Shown here piece after piece: positions 7,054-16,736 of a stretch of 51,465 bases of DNA. The notes under the pieces are model-generated. The model was not told where the DNA came from, did no database searches, and saw only the letters and a program-made list of their open reading frames with translations. The stretch lies in NCBI GenBank assembly GCA_029263175.1, contig JAJCXZ010000044.1:1-51465 (forward strand). Reading direction: 5' to 3'. Within the stretch, counting starts at the first letter, position 1, and each line of letters starts with the position of its first letter. A program made the position numbers and the translations under genes. The DNA is from Acidimicrobiales bacterium. Its GTDB lineage: Bacteria; Actinomycetota; Acidimicrobiia; Acidimicrobiales; Aldehydirespiratoraceae.

Positions 7054-7710
7054 TCATGGGCGTTCGGCTGCGAGACGTATGAGACCACGCTGAAGAGCGA
7101 CGGTGACGGCGTGGGTTCGGTCGTCGACGCCGAGCTTTCGGTAGATGTGGACGAGGTGACTCTTCACGGTGGCCTTGCCGATGTGCAGTCCTGCGGCGAT
7201 CTCTCGATTGCTGTGTCCCGCTGCCGCGAGTGCGAGAACGTCGAGCTCCCGTGGGGTGAGCGCGTCGGGTTGGGTTTTGCGCAGATCGCTCATCAGTCGG
7301 TTGGCCACTCGCGGCGCGAGAGCTGGCTCTCCCCGCGCTGTCGACCGGATGGCTTCGAATAACTGATCGGCGGGAGTGTCCTTCAGGAGGTAGCCGGCGG
7401 CACCTGCGTCGATGGCGTCAAAGATGTCGGCGTCGGTGTCGTAGGTGGTCAGCACCAGAACTGCGGTGCTGGTGTCGGTGCGGGCGAGCTCGACCAGCGC
7501 GCCCACACCGTCGATGACTGGCATCTGCAGGTCCATGAGCGCCACATCGGGTTCGAGGGCTCGGATGATGTCGATTGCTTCTCGGCCGTTCCCCGCCTCG
7601 CCGACCACCTCGATGTCGACCTGGGTCTCGAGCATGCGCCGGATCCCTTCCCGCACGACCGGGTGATCATCGACAATCACCAATCGCACGCGCTGGTCGC
7701 CGCCACTCAT
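7054..7710 (-). CDS. NarL/LuxR-family response regulator
   Basis: This 218-aa protein starts at the ATG at 7710. The receiver domain has the acidic pair Asp14-Asp15 (VDDHP), phospho-acceptor Asp60 (VALMDLQMP), a conserved Thr in VLTTYD and Lys in LLKD. The C-terminal LuxR HTH (LTPRELDVLALAAAGHSN...ATVKSHLVHIYRKLG) binds DNA. The ATG overlaps the kinase stop by 4 bp (ATGA), so the two are one operon. Likely targets are its own operon and the divergent membrane-protein gene at 9114. Confidence 0.93.
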   Translation of the reverse strand: MSGGDQRVRLVIVDDHPVVREGIRRMLETQVDIEVVGEAGNGREAIDIIRALEPDVALMDLQMPVIDGVGALVELARTDTSTAVLVLTTYDTDADIFDAIDAGAAGYLLKDTPADQLFEAIRSTARGEPALAPRVANRLMSDLRKTQPDALTPRELDVLALAAAGHSNREIAAGLHIGKATVKSHLVHIYRKLGVDDRTHAVTVALQRGLIRLAAERP

Positions 7711-8945
7711 TGGGTTCTCTCCGCCTCGGGTACGCACTCGACGTTGTCGGCTCGTGCAGTCGGGATCGTGACAGTGATGTTCGTGCCGGTCGACGGATCT
7801 GAATCGATGTGGACGGATCCGGCGACGGTGGCAGCACGCTCACGCAATCCGAGCAGACCAAGTCCTCCGTTCGGGCTCGGCGCAGCCGGAGTGGTGTCGA
7901 AGCCGGTCCCGTCGTCGTTCATGTCCAGGATGACTTCTTCGTCGAGGAACGTGAGCGTGCAGACGACACGAGACGCGTCGGCGTGTTTCGTGATGTTGGT
8001 CAAGGCTTCCTGAGCCGAGCGGAACAGCACGACTTCGTGTTCGGGGAGCAGCGGATACGGATCTCCTTCGACTCCGAACTCCGCCTTCACACCGTTGTTC
8101 GGGAAGCTCGACTCGACCAACACCTCCAACGCTCCGGCCAAGGCGCCGCGCTCGAGAGGCCCGGGTCGCAGCGACCACACCACTCGGCGAGCTTCGGCCA
8201 GGTGCTGCCGGGCGGTCTGGCGGGCCTGGTCGATGCTGGCCCTGACGTCGACCGCGTCGGGATCGAGTTGGGCGTCGGCCGCCTCGAGCAGCATGAAGAT
8301 GCTGGTGAAACCCTGCGCGAGCGAATCGTGAATGTCGCGAGCCAAACGCTCTCGTTCGGCCAAGACTCCGGCCTCGCGTTCACGGCTCGCCAGCTCAGCC
8401 CGAGTCGACTGCAATTCGGTGATCAGTTCTCGTTGCTGTTTGTTCTGCGTATGGATGCGACCGACCAGGCCATGCACGACGATGACCGCCAGGCCGGTGA
8501 GTGTCACTCCGGCCACCTCCGCCAAACTCAACCCTCCGTCAGCGGCCGAGATGACCAGCAGAATCGCCGAGAGAGCGACAACCGATGCAGCGGCGCGGGC
8601 CAGGAACGGGCACGCAGCAATCGCGTAGGCCCCGAGCACGGTGATCCCGAAGCCGGAGTGAAGCAGCAGCAGCGGCACCCAGAGCAGGACTGCGACCACC
8701 GTTGACCCGACAAAGCGGCCCCTAGTGAGGTCCCAGTACCGCCACCGATACGCCATCAACGCATGCCAACCCAGCAACCCCGCCGCCAGGGCAACCACCA
8801 CAAATTTGCGGCCGCTGGACAAATCGCCGTCAGCCAAAGCCACGGCAGTGCCGGCAACGATCGAGAGCTGAACAACCAGATGGCCGAGGCGCGCCCAACC
8901 GGACTGTTCGACCTGTCCCGTCTCGACGTCGGCTTCGCTGCTCAT
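7707..8945 (-). CDS. NarX/DesK-type sensor histidine kinase
   Basis: This 412-aa kinase starts at the ATG at 8945, with GTGAGGAAC about 6 nt upstream. It has five or six hydrophobic membrane segments in the first 180 residues, then a coiled coil (RIHTQNKQQRELITELQSTRAELASRER). The HisKA_3 motif follows (ERLARDIHDSLAQGF, phospho-His in DIHD), then an HATPase_c domain with QEALTNITKHA (N box) and DDGTGFD. There is no large extracytoplasmic sensor, so it probably senses something in or at the membrane. It is paired with the overlapping NarL-type regulator downstream. Confidence 0.93.
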   Translation of the reverse strand: MSSEADVETGQVEQSGWARLGHLVVQLSIVAGTAVALADGDLSSGRKFVVVALAAGLLGWHALMAYRWRYWDLTRGRFVGSTVVAVLLWVPLLLLHSGFGITVLGAYAIAACPFLARAAASVVALSAILLVISAADGGLSLAEVAGVTLTGLAVIVVHGLVGRIHTQNKQQRELITELQSTRAELASREREAGVLAERERLARDIHDSLAQGFTSIFMLLEAADAQLDPDAVDVRASIDQARQTARQHLAEARRVVWSLRPGPLERGALAGALEVLVESSFPNNGVKAEFGVEGDPYPLLPEHEVVLFRSAQEALTNITKHADASRVVCTLTFLDEEVILDMNDDGTGFDTTPAAPSPNGGLGLLGLRERAATVAGSVHIDSDPSTGTNITVTIPTARADNVECVPEAERTQ

Positions 8946-9113
8946 GGCCTGTTCCTCACACCAAGCGTAGGTCGCTGGCCGGGCCGGTCGCCTCCACCGA
9001 TCGGTTGATACGGCTGCACACCATCCGGTTGGTCGCACAACCCCCGGCAGGCGGATGTAGAGAACGTCCAGACACCTCAACATGAAGACATGGACACATC
9101 AAAGGAGAACCCT

Positions 9114-9612: not shown

Positions 9613-10512
9613 TTATACGGGGAAGACGTCGGCGAAGAGGCTGGAGAACACTCCGAGAGCGATGAACCAGACGCCGACGGTCAGCAAGATCCGTCCGCCC
9701 CAACGTTTGACGGTGGGTGCTCCTGCTTTGAGAGCGTCGACGGTGCGCTGCTGCGCGGCGCCGACGATCAGGGCGAGCCCAAACATCAAGAGGACGATCA
9801 TCAGTGCGGCGACTCCGAACGCTATGAACGCCGCGCTGGCCCCGCCGACGAGGAGGGACTGCCCAGCCAGACCGGCCAGGATCGGACCCGTTCAACCAAA
9901 CCCTGCCGCAAGGTAGGCGAACCCGAATAGGCCGAATCGCAGCAACTCGGGTTTTCCGTGCCCTCGGCTTTCTCGACGCTGACGCACCAAGAAGCCCTTC
10001 AACGCTGGCTCGAATCGCCGCAGAGGGACACTGATGCGGCCGAGCTGGACCAGCCCGACGAGGATCAGGAAAGTACCTACGGTGACGCGCAGAATCCGAC
10101 CGGTGGTGCTGGTGAATGTGACGTCTTTGATGATGGCGTCGCCTCCCACGGCGATCGCTGTTCCGAGCAGCGCCAAGAACGCGACGACACCAAGCGACAA
10201 CGCGGTCGCGAATGCGAGAGAGTTCCGGGTTGGCTGGCGCCGCTCACCGGTCTCTGCTCTCTCCGCCAGGGGGCGGCCGAGCATGCCGACCAGCAGCGGA
10301 AACGAGCACGGCGAGAAGAACGACGCGACACCTGCGGCTGAGGCGAGGACGATCAGACCGGCGCCGACGCCGGCTGATTGATCGAGGCTGGGGTAGATGA
10401 CGAAGCCGAGGTAGCCGACAAGGCCAGAGACGAGAACCACAAAGGCCAGCGTCGCGTATCGGACGAACGATGGGCTGCTGCTTTCAGCACCCGGTGTATT
10501 TTTATTGCTCAT
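9613..10512 (-). CDS. CcdA-like thiol-redox membrane protein with in-frame TGA (putative selenoprotein)
   Basis: The reading frame runs from ATG 10512 to TAA 9613-9615 (299 codons) with one internal TGA at 9892-9894, codon 207. Before it: a DsbD/CcdA-type membrane domain with conserved Cys69 in FFSPCSFPLL. After it: the frame stays open for 92 more codons with two further membrane segments. The TGA follows AYLAAGFG and precedes TGPILAGL, where CcdA proteins have their second redox Cys. From 18 nt past the TGA the transcript can fold as CCTGGCC, loop GGTCT, GGCTGGG; a bulged U at 9878 is possible. That loop resembles the E. coli fdhF SECIS. Selenocysteine insertion is the best reading; a nonsense pseudogene is the alternative. 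It is divergent from a MerR gene. Confidence 0.7.
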
Positions 10513-10555
10513 CGCTATCCGACCCTCCCGGCAGTCGCCTACCCGACTGACGGTA

Positions 10556-10579
10556 GACCCTGAACCTGGCTTCAAGGTC
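10556..10579. promoter_or_regulatory. MerR-type operator/promoter for the CcdA-like gene
   Basis: On the minus strand a -35 TTGACC (10576-10581) is followed by a dyad GACCTTGAA-N6-TTCAGGGTC and an overlong spacer of about 19 bp. This is the hallmark of promoters twisted open by MerR-family activators. It lies between the CcdA-like gene and the divergent MerR gene. On the plus strand a -10-like TATCCT (10585-10590) lies just ahead of the MerR ATG, suggesting a leaderless MerR transcript. Confidence 0.7.
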
Positions 10580-10598
10580 AAGTGATATCCTCAGATTC

Positions 10599-11009
10599 AT
10601 GCGAATCGGAGAAATGGCCGACGAGGTCGGCGTCACCACCGAAGCAATTCGCTACTACGAAAAGGTCGGCCTACTCGCCTCTCCGACTCGAACTACTTCG
10701 GGATACCGCGACTACGACCGCCCCGCACTCGAGCGGCTCAGGTTCATCCGAACCGCCCAAACCGTTGGGTTCACCCTCGGCGAGATCGGTGAGATCCTCG
10801 ACCTACGCGACAACGGCCAGACCCCGTGCGACCACGTGCGCCAGCTCATCGCCAAACACGCCGCCGACCTCCAACAACGCATCAACGACCTCCAAGCGAT
10901 GCAATCTGACTTACGGCACCTCGCCATCGTCGCTGCAGCCGAGCCACAGGCCACCGACGATGCCACGCACTGCCACATCCTCGAAACAGCGCGAACTCCA
11001 ACGAGATAG
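10599..11009 (+). CDS. MerR-family metal/thiol-responsive regulator (module 1)
   Basis: This 136-aa protein begins MRIGEMADEVGVTTEAIRYYEKVGLL, the MerR winged HTH, followed by GYRDYD and a long dimerisation helix (residues about 80-108). Putative metal ligands are Cys77 (TPCDHV) and Cys125 (THCHILE), positions like those of ZntR/CueR-type sensors, although the usual extra CC in the metal loop is missing. It should activate the divergent CcdA-like gene through the operator at 10556-10579. The metal or redox signal cannot be named from sequence. Confidence 0.9.
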   Translation: MRIGEMADEVGVTTEAIRYYEKVGLLASPTRTTSGYRDYDRPALERLRFIRTAQTVGFTLGEIGEILDLRDNGQTPCDHVRQLIAKHAADLQQRINDLQAMQSDLRHLAIVAAAEPQATDDATHCHILETARTPTR

Positions 11010-11099: not shown

Positions 11100-12458
11100 C
11101 TAGAGCATCGAGCCGAGGTCGGAGGTGACGGTGGGGTAGGCGGGGGTCATGGATTTGAGTTGTCGGGTGGTGAGGCCGAGTTTGATGGCGAGGGCACAGA
11201 AGTTGATGAGTTCGCCGTACTCGGGGCCGAGCATGTGCGCACCAACGATCGTGGCGGTCGCTCTGTCGACGAGGATCTTGACGGCTGCGGTGGTTTCGCC
11301 GATCCGGTAGTTGGAGTACCAGCCGCTCGTGTCGGTGTATCGGACGTCAAGGTCAATGCCGGCCGCGACAGCTTCAGATTCGAGCATGCCGACACGGGCC
11401 AGTTCAGGGATGGTGAACACCGCAGTTGGAACACCGGCATAGTCCGGAACGGTGGTCGCCGACTTCAACATGTTTGACGCTGCGACCTTGCCTTCGAACA
11501 CCGCGATCGGGGTGAGTGGCATGCCCGGCGTGTCCGCAGAATCTCCCGCCGCGTACACCTTGGGGTTGGTGGTGCTCTGCAGATGCCCGGCAACGTTCAC
11601 ACCTCTCGGGCCGTATTCAACGTTGGCGGCTTCGAGCCCAAGCCGTGAGAGTTCTGAGATTCGTCCAGCGCCGTGCACAACAAGGTCGGTCTCGATGACG
11701 CTGCGGGCACCGTCTCGTTCGACGGTTACCCGGTAGGCGGGACCGTCGGTCTCGACCGAAACGATGCTGGTGTCGGTGTGAGTCTCGATGCCGGCTTGTG
11801 CGCTGCGATCGATGAGGAGCTCGACGAGGTCCGGGTCGAATCCCTTGAGTGGGCGTCCGCGATCGATGATTCTGGGTCGGGTCCCGGCTCGTGCCGCGAT
11901 GTGTGCGAATTCGAAGGAGATGAAACCTCCTCCGACGAAAAGGATCCTTTCGGGAAGCTCGGCGAGATCGAGAAATGCGGTGCTGTCGATGAGATGGTCG
12001 GCGCCGGGGAAGTCGAGTGGTCGGGGGCGGGCTCCGGTCGCGATGAGGAAGTGGTCCGCGGTGTAGCCAACGCCGTCGATGTCGAGGCTGTTCGTCCCGG
12101 TGAAGCGGGCGGTGCCGTGCAGGGTGTCGACCCCGTTGCCAGTGAGGCCGCGTTCCATGTTCGCGGGGACAGGCTCAGTGAATCCGAGTTTGTGTTTCAT
12201 GAGATCGGCCCAGTTGATCTGCAAACCTTCAGCGTCGATCCCCTTGCCGCTCATGAGGCGAGCACTATCGATGATCTCCGCGCCGCGCCGCAGGATCTTC
12301 TTCGGGTCACAACCCCGCAGCGCACATGTGCCGCCATAAGAAAGTTCATCGACGATCGCCACGCGCCAGCCCGACGAGGCGCACTTGTTCGCAGCCGCGT
12401 TGCCGGCCATGCCGGCGCCAACGACAATCAGGTCATAGTCGGCGTTGTCATTACTCAT
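11100..12458 (-). CDS. FAD-dependent disulfide oxidoreductase, glutathione/mercuric-reductase-like
   Basis: This 452-aa flavoprotein has a GAGMAGNAAA FAD-binding motif, the redox-active pair Cys45-Cys50 in GGTCALRGCDPKK, a second dinucleotide fold (GGGFISFEFAHIA), the FAD-binding VYAAGD and a C-terminal dimerisation domain. The C-terminus ends near YPTVTSDLGSML: the usual HP catalytic dyad has Tyr in place of His, and the terminal vicinal cysteines of true MerA are absent. It follows a metallochaperone-like gene in a MerR-controlled operon, so a metal- or thiol-detoxifying reductase is likely. RBS AGAGGAA precedes the ATG at 12458. Confidence 0.88.
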   Translation of the reverse strand: MSNDNADYDLIVVGAGMAGNAAANKCASSGWRVAIVDELSYGGTCALRGCDPKKILRRGAEIIDSARLMSGKGIDAEGLQINWADLMKHKLGFTEPVPANMERGLTGNGVDTLHGTARFTGTNSLDIDGVGYTADHFLIATGARPRPLDFPGADHLIDSTAFLDLAELPERILFVGGGFISFEFAHIAARAGTRPRIIDRGRPLKGFDPDLVELLIDRSAQAGIETHTDTSIVSVETDGPAYRVTVERDGARSVIETDLVVHGAGRISELSRLGLEAANVEYGPRGVNVAGHLQSTTNPKVYAAGDSADTPGMPLTPIAVFEGKVAASNMLKSATTVPDYAGVPTAVFTIPELARVGMLESEAVAAGIDLDVRYTDTSGWYSNYRIGETTAAVKILVDRATATIVGAHMLGPEYGELINFCALAIKLGLTTRQLKSMTPAYPTVTSDLGSML

Positions 12459-13305: not shown

Positions 13306-13719
13306 ATGTTGATCGGTCAACTCGCTGACGCCCTTGGCATCCCCACCAGAACCGTCAGGTTCTACGAGCGCAAAGGGCTCCTGCCCGAGCCTGAACGCGC
13401 CGAGAACGGCTACCGCGTCTACGACGACGCCACGCTTGGCCGGCTCCGATTCATACGCACCGCACAAGCCGCCGGACTCACCCTGGCCGAGATCGCGAGC
13501 GTCATCGGAGTCCGCGACGACGGCACCGCCCCATGCAGCCATGTCGACTCACTCCTCGAAACCAAACTCGCTGAAGTCCGAGAACGGCGCCGCCAACTCA
13601 CCACCCTCGAAGCCGAACTCTCCGCACTCCTCGAACACAGCCGACAACTCGACCCAGCAGACTGCACCGCCGGCGAGATCTGCCACATCTTCACGCCAAG
13701 CGAGATTGCGCAGTCGTGA
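13306..13719 (+). CDS. MerR-family metal-responsive regulator (module 2)
   Basis: This 137-aa protein starts MLIGQLADALGIPTRTVRFYERKGLL, with GYRVYD and a long dimer helix. Candidate metal ligands are Cys77 (APCSHV), Cys120 and Cys126 (DC...GEICHIF), spaced like the three-cysteine site of MerR/ZntR/PbrR sensors. It should activate the divergent three-gene operon (carrier, CopZ-like chaperone, reductase) through the dyad at 13266-13285. Mercury, copper or another thiophilic metal are all possible. Confidence 0.9.
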   Translation: MLIGQLADALGIPTRTVRFYERKGLLPEPERAENGYRVYDDATLGRLRFIRTAQAAGLTLAEIASVIGVRDDGTAPCSHVDSLLETKLAEVRERRRQLTTLEAELSALLEHSRQLDPADCTAGEICHIFTPSEIAQS

Positions 13720-14607: not shown

Positions 14608-14816
14608 ATCTTCACGCTAGGCCAGCAGGCACGACCAAGCCGGTCGGGCAGCACGCGAACCCGTGCTCTAGGATTGGGTGAGCGCCGGCAGGGTGCTTCC
14701 GGTCCGCGGAAAGGGCAAAGCCCACCTGCAGAACACCAGATCACGTGCCATGGAACGTTGTTCCTCTTTCGGGCCCGATCATGCGGACACCGGGCAAACA
14801 CGAAAGGGGCCCATCC

Positions 14817-16736
14817 GTGCCAACCACCTCACTGCCCGAAAATCCGTCGCTCGAACACCTCAAAGGCCAAGCCAAACTCGTCCGTGACCTGATCCGGGCG
14901 GCAGACTCCGGCGGACTGTCAATGGTGGACGAGTTCCATCCTCGTCTCGACGCCGCAGATATCGACGATGACCGCCGAGCTGGCTTCAAGACTGCGGACG
15001 CTCAACTGATCGTTGCCCGCATGTACCGGTTCCCGAATTGGAACCGGCTGCGGGAACACGTCGCGGTCGTAACCGAGCACAGTTTCACCCCACACGCCGA
15101 ACGACCTTCCGGCCCGGACCAGCCTGCGTCGTTCGTCAAAGATGCATGCCACGACTACGCAGAAGACGGACCCAGTCCAGCAGACCGGATCGCCGCAGCT
15201 CACCGAATGCTCGACGCCGACCCGGACGTCGCCACCGGTTCGATCGAGGCGCTGGCCACCGTCGGAGACCACCAGGCCCTCGCCACCGAACTCGACATCC
15301 ATTCCGACGTCGTCAACGAGCCATGCGGACCAAACGATTGGCCGCCGCTGCTGTATGCGGTCTACTCCCGAATCTCTACCGACAACGCCGACTGGTCAGC
15401 GATCGAAACCGTCAAGGTGCTGCTAGGTCATGGCGCTGACCCCAACGCCGGGTTCCTCTGGCGTGGCCTCACCCCGCCATTCACCGCCCTCACCGGAGCA
15501 TTCGGAGGGGGCGAAAGCCACCAGGCATGGCACACCGAACGACTCGCGATCGCACGACTGCTCCTCGACGCCGGAGCCGATCCCAACGACGGTCAACTCC
15601 TCTACAACAACGGCATCGGCGGCCAGAACCACGACAACCCCGAATACCTCCAGCTCCTCGTCGAATACGGACTCGGCAAGCAACAGAACGGCCCCTGGTA
15701 CCAGCGCCTCGGCGACCAACTCCGCGACCCCGCCGAACTCCTCTACGACGAACTCGAAGCCGCCGCCAAACGTAACCGCCCAACCATCCTCAGCTACCTC
15801 GCCAACCTCGGCCTCGACCTCAACCGACCCGTCGGACGGTCCCAGTCCACGCCAGCCAGGATCGCCGCCTCCGAAGGTCACGACGACATCCTTGCCATCC
15901 TCGCCGAGCACGGGATCGACACCGACCTCACCCCAACCGAGACAGCGCTCCAACACACACGAACGAATCAAACCAACGAGCTACGGCAGCTTCTCGAGAA
16001 CCAACCCGGCCTACTCCCCCAGCTCCACTACGACCATCCAGGGCTCTGCAAGAACGTCACCGCACAACAGCCGGAGATGCTCGAACTGTTGATCGAACTC
16101 GGCTTCGACATCAACAATCGGACCGCAACCAAGACCGCGCTCCATCACGCCGCCGAAGCCAACGACACCCTACGAGCGCGTCTCCTCATCGAGCACGGAG
16201 CCGACCCCAACCTCGTCGACACCCACATCGGCGCCACACCATGGGGATGGGCCAACCACTTCGGCAACTCCGAAACCGCCACCTACCTCCACCCACTCAC
16301 CCACCACGGCGACCCGCTACCCGAGATCACGATCCGGCTTGCAGAAACGGTCGTCACACTCGCAACCCCAGACCTGATCGAGCACCACCTCGACCGCATC
16401 CACCAAACCGCCATCACACCCGTGCTCGTGCGCCTCGAAGCCAACCGCGCAAGCCTCAGCATCGGGCTCGGTCGTAACGATCTTTCAGTCGCGCTCTATC
16501 TCGACACTGACAACAAACCATGGCACGCCACCGGCGACGCCCGCCTCGATGTCGACGGCACGATCAGCTTCACCAGCCCCGACCGCCAACACGACTACGA
16601 GTTCAACCCTGAAGCCGTCATCAGCCTCGAATCGGCCCGAGCGACAGCACGAGCATTCGTACTCCAGCCCGCAACACAGCCAACAACCGTCACCTGGATG
16701 CCAGAAGACAACCCGGAACGAAACGACCGTGGCTGA
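14817..16736 (+). CDS. Ankyrin-repeat protein with Imm1-like C-terminal domain
   Basis: This 639-aa protein starts at GTG 14817 behind GAAAGGGG. After a helical N-terminus (SLPENPSLEHLKGQAKLVRDL) it has ankyrin-type units: VKVLLGHGADPNAG, ARLLLDAGADPNDG, LLVEYG, ILSYLANLGLDLNRP, ILAILAEHGIDTD, LLIELGFDINNR and ARLLIEHGADPNLV. The last 100 or so residues change character to a beta-rich segment (LSVALYLDTDNKPW ... ESARATARAFVL ... TTVTWMPED), resembling the Imm1 immunity-protein fold. Ankyrin scaffolds mediate protein binding, and Imm1 proteins neutralise contact-dependent or polymorphic toxins. The Imm1 match is from memory of the pattern and needs a profile search. Confidence 0.75.
   Translation: MPTTSLPENPSLEHLKGQAKLVRDLIRAADSGGLSMVDEFHPRLDAADIDDDRRAGFKTADAQLIVARMYRFPNWNRLREHVAVVTEHSFTPHAERPSGPDQPASFVKDACHDYAEDGPSPADRIAAAHRMLDADPDVATGSIEALATVGDHQALATELDIHSDVVNEPCGPNDWPPLLYAVYSRISTDNADWSAIETVKVLLGHGADPNAGFLWRGLTPPFTALTGAFGGGESHQAWHTERLAIARLLLDAGADPNDGQLLYNNGIGGQNHDNPEYLQLLVEYGLGKQQNGPWYQRLGDQLRDPAELLYDELEAAAKRNRPTILSYLANLGLDLNRPVGRSQSTPARIAASEGHDDILAILAEHGIDTDLTPTETALQHTRTNQTNELRQLLENQPGLLPQLHYDHPGLCKNVTAQQPEMLELLIELGFDINNRTATKTALHHAAEANDTLRARLLIEHGADPNLVDTHIGATPWGWANHFGNSETATYLHPLTHHGDPLPEITIRLAETVVTLATPDLIEHHLDRIHQTAITPVLVRLEANRASLSIGLGRNDLSVALYLDTDNKPWHATGDARLDVDGTISFTSPDRQHDYEFNPEAVISLESARATARAFVLQPATQPTTVTWMPEDNPERNDRG

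Follow-up and report, generated by a model that had tools for sequence, protein, structure and literature searches.

The window, by which we mean the whole 51,465-nucleotide stretch analysed here, comes from a draft genome of 4.4 Mb in 111 contigs that is 97% complete, and carries on its minus strand (9613..10512) a gene for a CcdA-like membrane protein of 299 residues that we propose contains selenocysteine (Sec). The frame runs from an ATG at 10512 to a TAA stop at 9613-9615 and holds a single in-frame stop, a TGA; translated with TGA as Sec (U), it matches the family profile, so that the claim of a preliminary description of this DNA, a whole CcdA-like frame broken by TGA alone, holds over the full 299 residues. 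The TGA is codon 207 (9892..9894, minus strand), lies in the context GFG-stop-TGPIL and, as that description had supposed, occupies the place of the second redox cysteine of the family, aligning with the Cys of relatives and of the CcdA structure 5vkv; it is this codon that would specify Sec. The first redox cysteine was likewise rightly read as intact: Cys69 (10306..10308, minus strand) stands in the translation within the motif FFSPCSFP, and columns 69 and 207 are both invariant across the 54 rows of alignment A2, with UGA counted as Cys. The window protein thus has one Cys and one UGA where CcdA and DsbD_TM have two redox cysteines, and would represent a Cys/Sec variant.

Membership in the CcdA family emerges from the comparison of profiles. 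A profile built from the subfamily alone (A1) aligns with canonical CcdA (A4) at 99.1% in hhalign (E 4.1e-19), and a search of the PDB with the profile of A2, whose 54 chosen rows include 6 class-level CcdA-like rows from outside the subfamily, returned as its sole match 5vkv, the NMR structure of CcdA (E 4.9e-23), with the UGA column falling on the second redox Cys. Taken singly, the window protein (P0001) matches no Pfam family at E 0.001, PF02683 (DsbD_TM) included, and no credible family in NCBIfam; among its relatives, L214 scores 27.9, just above the PF02683 gathering score of 27.1, and L021 scores 26.8, below it. A first structure model was weak (pLDDT 68.7) and a second, from AlphaFold, better (pLDDT 82.2). 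Foldseek ranks 5vkv first for the AlphaFold model (E 0.018, probability 1.00, TM 0.37/0.46), and the VIA Z for 5vkv is 7.2, below that of unrelated transporters (up to 8.4), so that structural neighbours do not discriminate. Set against CcdA and DsbD (PF02683; 5VKV), the family shares the SPC..P motif in the first core helix, an aligned second redox position and a matching core profile, but it has UGA at the second redox residue, and the window protein, which is predicted by its model to have an additional N-terminal helix, falls in a remote subfamily without a Pfam match.

The unusual codon is shared by relatives. The close subfamily comprises 10 loci including the window (E below 1e-30 in a sample of 296 class genomes), the nine others being 36-48% identical to the window protein; exactly one TGA stands in the same alignment column in 9/10, and TGC in the tenth, from genome G001. 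The preliminary description had proposed aligning homologues at this codon, Cys versus TGA, and asking whether close relatives ever carry TGA. They do at 28 of the 80 loci found in a scan of genome contigs, the remainder having Cys (TGC or TGT) at 51 and one locus, L147, being left out of the codon count as a match without coverage of the codon; no residue besides Cys replaces TGA at codon 207 among these 80. A search of 396 genomes of the phylum gave 11 matches at E<=1e-50, 10 with exactly one TGA and one (G001) without it, four of which (G000, G001, G429 and G584) also belong to the preceding sets, the last two judged to equal L127 and L126; contig C27 of G531 also holds a second copy, split across two frames. 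Overlap between the other locus sets was likewise judged (L125 equals L021, L134 equals L022, L140 equals L026, L141 equals L028, L143 equals L023, L144 equals L025 and L148 equals L027), and TGA is read at codon 207 in 34 distinct loci, namely the 28, the window, G121 and four phylum loci.

For the majority of TGA members, identity to the window protein is 34-58%. A single TGA lies in the aligned span in 26/28 TGA loci and two in L130 and L138, the latter having no Cys aligned at 69; none of the 28 has a TAA or TAG within its aligned span, and 27 are aligned beyond residue 285, the alignment of L135 ending at residue 219, 12 residues past the codon. As labelled, the TGA loci come from Acidimicrobiia, other Actinomycetota, Chloroflexota (Thermomicrobiaceae, Sphaerobacteraceae, Anaerolineae) and one Armatimonadota bin; five TGA records are labelled Acidobacteria, three of which we judge to be genomes of the window's class. 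The Cys loci are archaeal, again as labelled, in 50/51 cases. In a tree of 56 rows (quick method, SH-aLRT support only, omitting L147 and 30 of the 44 loci L154-L197), a bacterial clade of 31 rows consists of 30 TGA rows and a single Cys row, that of G001, nested inside it, and two changes of state suffice.

Downstream of the UGA lies a SECIS-like hairpin (9862..9881, minus strand), in which nucleotides 15-18 after the UGA pair with nucleotides 24-27 and the lower stem is either unbroken or carries a bulged U at 9878. Its 5' arm, CCUGGCC, covers nucleotides 12-18 and its apical loop, GGUCU (9869..9873, minus strand), nucleotides 19-23; the hairpin foreseen in the preliminary description is therefore present, but the offset of 18 nt that had been given for the start of the stem belongs to the loop. 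Both of the stem forms then envisaged, seven unbroken pairs or a bulged U, are possible, and relatives favour the bulged form only slightly, 87.7% of cells being paired in it versus 85.2% in the unbroken seven-pair form; the idea of a clear preference among relatives for the bulged-U hairpin was dropped on these figures. The asserted likeness to the E. coli fdhF SECIS extends to position and loop alike, GGTCT following the TGA of fdhF by the same 18 nt, and also to the U at nucleotide 14, which we take to be the position of the fdhF bulge. By our own reading, the part above that U consists in the Sec-CcdA family of four pairs with a loop of 5 nt, whereas in fdhF it has three pairs and 6 nt; the lower stem of the Sec-CcdA hairpin, in a further difference, varies.

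GGTCT stands exactly at +18 in 27/28 TGA loci and in 0/51 Cys loci; over the distinct TGA loci the count is 33/34, the exception, L131, having AGTCT. Positions 15 and 27, each the third base of a codon and free to change synonymously, form a pair in 29/30 sequences (18 GC, 5 TA, 3 GT, 2 CG and 1 TG, with one unpaired CA), and shuffles give a mean of 16.8 paired and reach 29 in 0/20,000 trials. Kinship alone can lift sequences above shuffles without any structure, and a control with slid partners was used for this reason: across 29 sequences, the share of paired cells is 87.7% in register and 20-43% with the partners slid, and the corresponding covariation scores are 0.285 and 0.017-0.080. Of the five pair measures, two fail to rise above column shuffles: pairs with changes on both sides (2 versus 2.0) and further pair types (9 versus 7.8). 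Alignment A3 was made without L142, whose 48 nt are identical to those of L140. The codons of the loop are close to fixed, with GCC in 28/28, GGT in 27/28 and CTG in 28/28 TGA loci, whereas in the rest of those genes they supply 0.40, 0.17 and 0.39 of the codons for their amino acids; the U at nucleotide 14 is invariant too, but as the second base of a Leu codon it carries no weight by itself. These comparisons support a SECIS-like element that appears to be conserved beyond what the protein needs. It is the comparison with relatives, not the folding energy, that sets the hairpin above chance: the 41 nt fold at -15.1 kcal/mol, no better than chance against shuffles (z -0.07), and Rfam gives no SECIS match at its gathering threshold, nor for the local 201 bases when E values as high as 10 are admitted. 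The genome G001, whose member has Cys, keeps SelB and tRNA-Sec, and its CcdA locus keeps GGTCT at +18 but has C opposite C at 15/27, a combination of retained loop and broken pair as would be expected of a relic SECIS.

A search of the same genome for selA, selB, selC and selD, which the preliminary description had put forward, finds all four. SelB scores 278 bits against a cut-off of 242 and is encoded directly behind a selA-like gene, SelA being identified from its sequence together with this place before selB; tRNA-Sec has the anticodon UCA (64 versus 47 bits), an anticodon confined to tRNA-Sec among the seven loci that the tRNA-Sec model draws from this genome; and selD (L016, contig C3; 355 bits, above cut-off) has itself one in-frame TGA, in GAGUGCK. 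Because the genome holds selA-selB, a tRNA-Sec with UCA and a TGA-bearing selD, decoding of UGA as Sec is very likely in the organism of the window, as far as gene content can tell. In the 57 nt that follow the TGA of selD there is no GGTCT, and this gene would therefore use a SECIS different from the one of the CcdA gene. Among relatives, SelB lies above the cut-off in 10/11 TGA genomes versus 0/9 Cys genomes, in a sample made up of the genomes behind 11/28 TGA loci and 9/51 Cys loci in which all nine Cys genomes are archaea; in the eleventh TGA genome, G654, the SelB match sits in an open frame of only 206 residues. Within the class, SelB exceeds the cut-off in 10/10 subfamily genomes and in 9/10 comparison genomes, and being so widespread its presence is a requirement but does not discriminate. 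A tRNA-Sec is called by ARAGORN in 8/10 subfamily genomes, all but G210 and G276, both of which are fragmented drafts.

Other readings of the codon have to be weighed against this evidence. Were the TGA a true stop, the gene would be a decaying or truncated CcdA, of which the standard code yields only the N-terminal 206 residues, and L135 and L138 do look partly disrupted; yet the frame is open past the TGA, free of TAA and TAG in all 28 TGA loci, and the TGA persists across members as far apart as noted above, where only Cys replaces it. The comparative data refute a true stop unless the downstream part is separately translated, and we consider it highly improbable. The codon might alternatively specify a different amino acid, Cys or Trp for instance, through a suppressor tRNA or an altered code, and some bacteria do have natural UGA-reading tRNAs besides tRNA-Sec; the fdhF-like loop, its identical spacing and the covarying wobble sites argue against such decoding, as do the presence of SelB and tRNA-Sec and the confinement of UCA to tRNA-Sec among the seven loci drawn by its model, making it very unlikely. 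That the base is a sequencing or assembly error for TGC or TGT, a danger the preliminary description had itself raised, could seem plausible for a window from a draft in 111 contigs, but the same codon recurs in many independent assemblies from several phyla; this recurrence refutes an error, whose probability we regard as negligible. On strong comparative evidence, we infer that UGA 207 is decoded as Sec and that the protein belongs to the CcdA family.

Upstream of the CcdA-like gene, with 86 nt between the two start codons, lies a divergent gene for a MerR-family regulator (10599..11009, plus strand), which gives Pfam MerR matches and scores below the cut-off of every listed NCBIfam MerR model. 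The minus strand at 10550..10581 carries a MerR-type promoter, composed of TTGACC (10581-10576), a 20-nt spacer with an imperfect dyad, and TACCGT (10555-10550). Over 31 loci, comprising the 28 TGA loci, the window, G121 and the Cys locus of G001, a MerR gene occurs within 6.5 kb in 19; the 12 without one in that range include several cut by contig ends, and L119 (73% identical) has none in the 6 kb on either side. All 19 aligned MerR proteins, which come from 17 of the 19 loci (L121 and L135 are absent), have two cysteines in common, the first in the middle of the protein and the second close to its C-terminus. Promoters taken from 9 of the 19 MerR-bearing loci invariably combine TTGAC(C/T) with a -10-like hexamer 18-20 nt on, an arrangement seen in 0.4-3.7% of dinucleotide shuffles, and in all but that of L120 (8/9) a dyad forms 7 or more of its 9 pairs, which happens in no more than 0.6% of shuffles. 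The divergent regulator, the long-spacer dyad promoter and their recurrence in relatives thus bear out the earlier suggestion that the gene stands under a MerR promoter. The window holds a second MerR gene at 13306-13719 (plus strand) and, at 11100-12458 (minus strand), a gene for an FAD disulfide oxidoreductase that resembles MerA and glutathione reductase and scores below the listed cut-offs; genes similar to both lie near the CcdA gene of L120. Between MerR and CcdA in L029/G001 (L058), the sequence reads as an apparent C-terminal fragment of a MerA-like protein.

Several relatives join the Sec-CcdA gene to genes or domains of metal handling. An HMA heavy-metal domain, over the Pfam cut-off, is fused in frame at the N-terminus in three members (L214:3388-4485, L216:3925-5022 and L128:3772-4854), and in L127/L217 and L219 an HMA-looking gene, recognised by reading of the sequence only, lies just upstream of Sec-CcdA. 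In L146, Sec-CcdA is followed by the mercuric reductase MerA (563 bits against a cut-off of 454) and by a MerR. The window protein is itself without an HMA domain, and no MerA over the cut-off adjoins its gene. A different association appears in L140, L142 and L148, where the gene order is CcdA, MerR, a DF-like protein and rhodanese-CBS. The rhodanese-CBS protein, encoded at L055:839-1585 and L056:1496-2248 (both minus strand; these contigs are also those of L140 and L148) in the neighbourhood of Sec-CcdA, MerR and a thioredoxin-like gene of the DF family, has two in-frame TGA codons that would be read as UHDGLU. A rhodanese-CBS gene with two TGA is found in 6/10 genomes, the window's genome offering nothing of comparable strength (best E 3.7e-8), and its product looks like a double selenoprotein akin to the rhodanese part of TsoB.

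We propose, with a probability of about 0.88, that the locus encodes a Cys/Sec selenoprotein of the CcdA/DsbD family that is SECIS-directed, switched by MerR and most likely active in the defence against soft, mercury-like metals. UGA 207 would be read as selenocysteine by SelB and tRNA-Sec, with insertion directed by the fdhF-like hairpin whose GGUCU loop starts 18 nt downstream; in place of the two Cys of ordinary CcdA, the product would have an intramembrane Cys at 69 and a Sec at 207. The divergent MerR-family sensor would turn the gene on from the promoter with its long, dyad-bearing spacer, and the Cys/Sec pair would then pass either a metal ion or reducing electrons through the membrane. 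Soft-metal defence is probably the role of the protein, in view of its neighbours and of the domain fusions, and it is from gene context that we infer metal induction and the cargo. As for that cargo, a metal seems to us about an even bet, electrons fall clearly below even odds while being far from negligible, and anything else is unlikely; the HMA fusions, the adjoining MerA and the annotation of actinomycete CcdA proteins as mercury transporters slightly favour a metal relay over electron transfer. Tentatively, and at not quite even odds, one may picture a selenolate membrane conduit for toxic soft metals, in which an HMA domain would hand Hg(II) or a similar ion to a Cys/Sec pair held inside the membrane by a CcdA scaffold, the whole being controlled by MerR and, in some species, forming part of a multi-selenoprotein operon that also supplies a thioredoxin-like protein and a double-Sec rhodanese. 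If so, a CcdA-family protein would have gained a metal-relay function built on selenium.

In CcdA, two intramembrane residues pass electrons from cytoplasmic thioredoxin to the outside. Sec-CcdA might be purely an electron carrier of this kind, binding no metal and leading electrons from cytoplasmic thioredoxin-like proteins to the repair of extracytoplasmic thiols under metal or oxidative stress, a reading that shares its Sec decoding with the explanation preferred here and differs from it in the cargo. Its attraction lies in the CcdA family itself, with two conserved redox positions, in the thioredoxin-like DF proteins and double-TGA rhodanese-CBS genes that adjoin Sec-CcdA in some relatives, and in the published TsoB, which unites rhodanese and DsbD domains (PMC13188914 Table 1). 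The HMA domain of five members (three fused and over the Pfam cut-off, two apparently just upstream by reading) and the MerA beside one member point instead to metal, and a casual inspection noticed no extracytoplasmic thioredoxin partner beside the window gene. We therefore see pure electron transfer as a real but minority possibility, and a metal-relaying Cys/Sec pair as the preferred reading.

The proposed protein borders on several described systems. TsoB (NF045694) links a DsbD-type membrane part with a UxxxxU rhodanese, and some relatives here have a separate UxxxxU rhodanese-CBS gene near Sec-CcdA; judging from profile positions, however, the two Sec of TsoB would fit its rhodanese part and not the membrane cysteine, and its cut-off of 805 bits is reached in 0/20 genomes. 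MerR control, an HMA domain and an adjoining MerA are features that some Sec-CcdA members have in common with MerT/MerP mercury import, MerT being of a different family from CcdA. Mercury transporters assigned to the CcdA region have been named in Gordonia and Mycobacteroides (PMC12195606 Table 4), but no Sec is claimed for them in the available part of that source. The window protein differs from mercury transporters also in giving only 7 weak matches in a collection of 72,556 plasmids, 5 of them annotated CcdA; L029 gives none. Selenoproteins related to metals include a mercuric transport protein (PF02411), a cation-transporting ATPase and the SO_0444 Cu/Zn efflux transporter (PMC13188914), which likewise place Sec within a metal system but carry other domain identifiers, none of them CcdA in the portion of that source available. 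Table 1 of the same 2026 review has 119 prokaryotic selenoprotein families, none CcdA, its nearest entry being TsoB, a rhodanese/DsbD fusion with UxxxxU, and the terms 'CcdA' and 'PF02683' occur 0 times in the accessible text (PMC13188914). No CcdA selenoprotein appeared in titles or abstract openings among the matches listed from the freely available literature; a related claim may be present in the source of TsoB (Haft and Tolstoy 2025). What we describe would be a known decoding system acting in a known membrane fold where Sec has not been listed.

The locus would add to the selenoproteins a candidate family whose Sec belongs to an intramembrane catalytic thiol pair and which is distributed, as its records are labelled, over Actinomycetota, Chloroflexota and one Armatimonadota bin, and would link the use of selenium to MerR-controlled metal defence. 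Its Cys/Sec pair may offer a direct route to asking why a membrane thiol carrier needs selenium. Gene callers that apply the standard code are expected to end such proteins at residue 206, so that members of the family may be widely mis-annotated.

Elsewhere in the window, a pair of genes for a response regulator and a histidine kinase lies downstream of the CcdA gene (7054-9083, minus strand), and a gene at 14745-16736 (plus strand) encodes an ankyrin-repeat protein that carries an Imm1 immunity domain towards its end.
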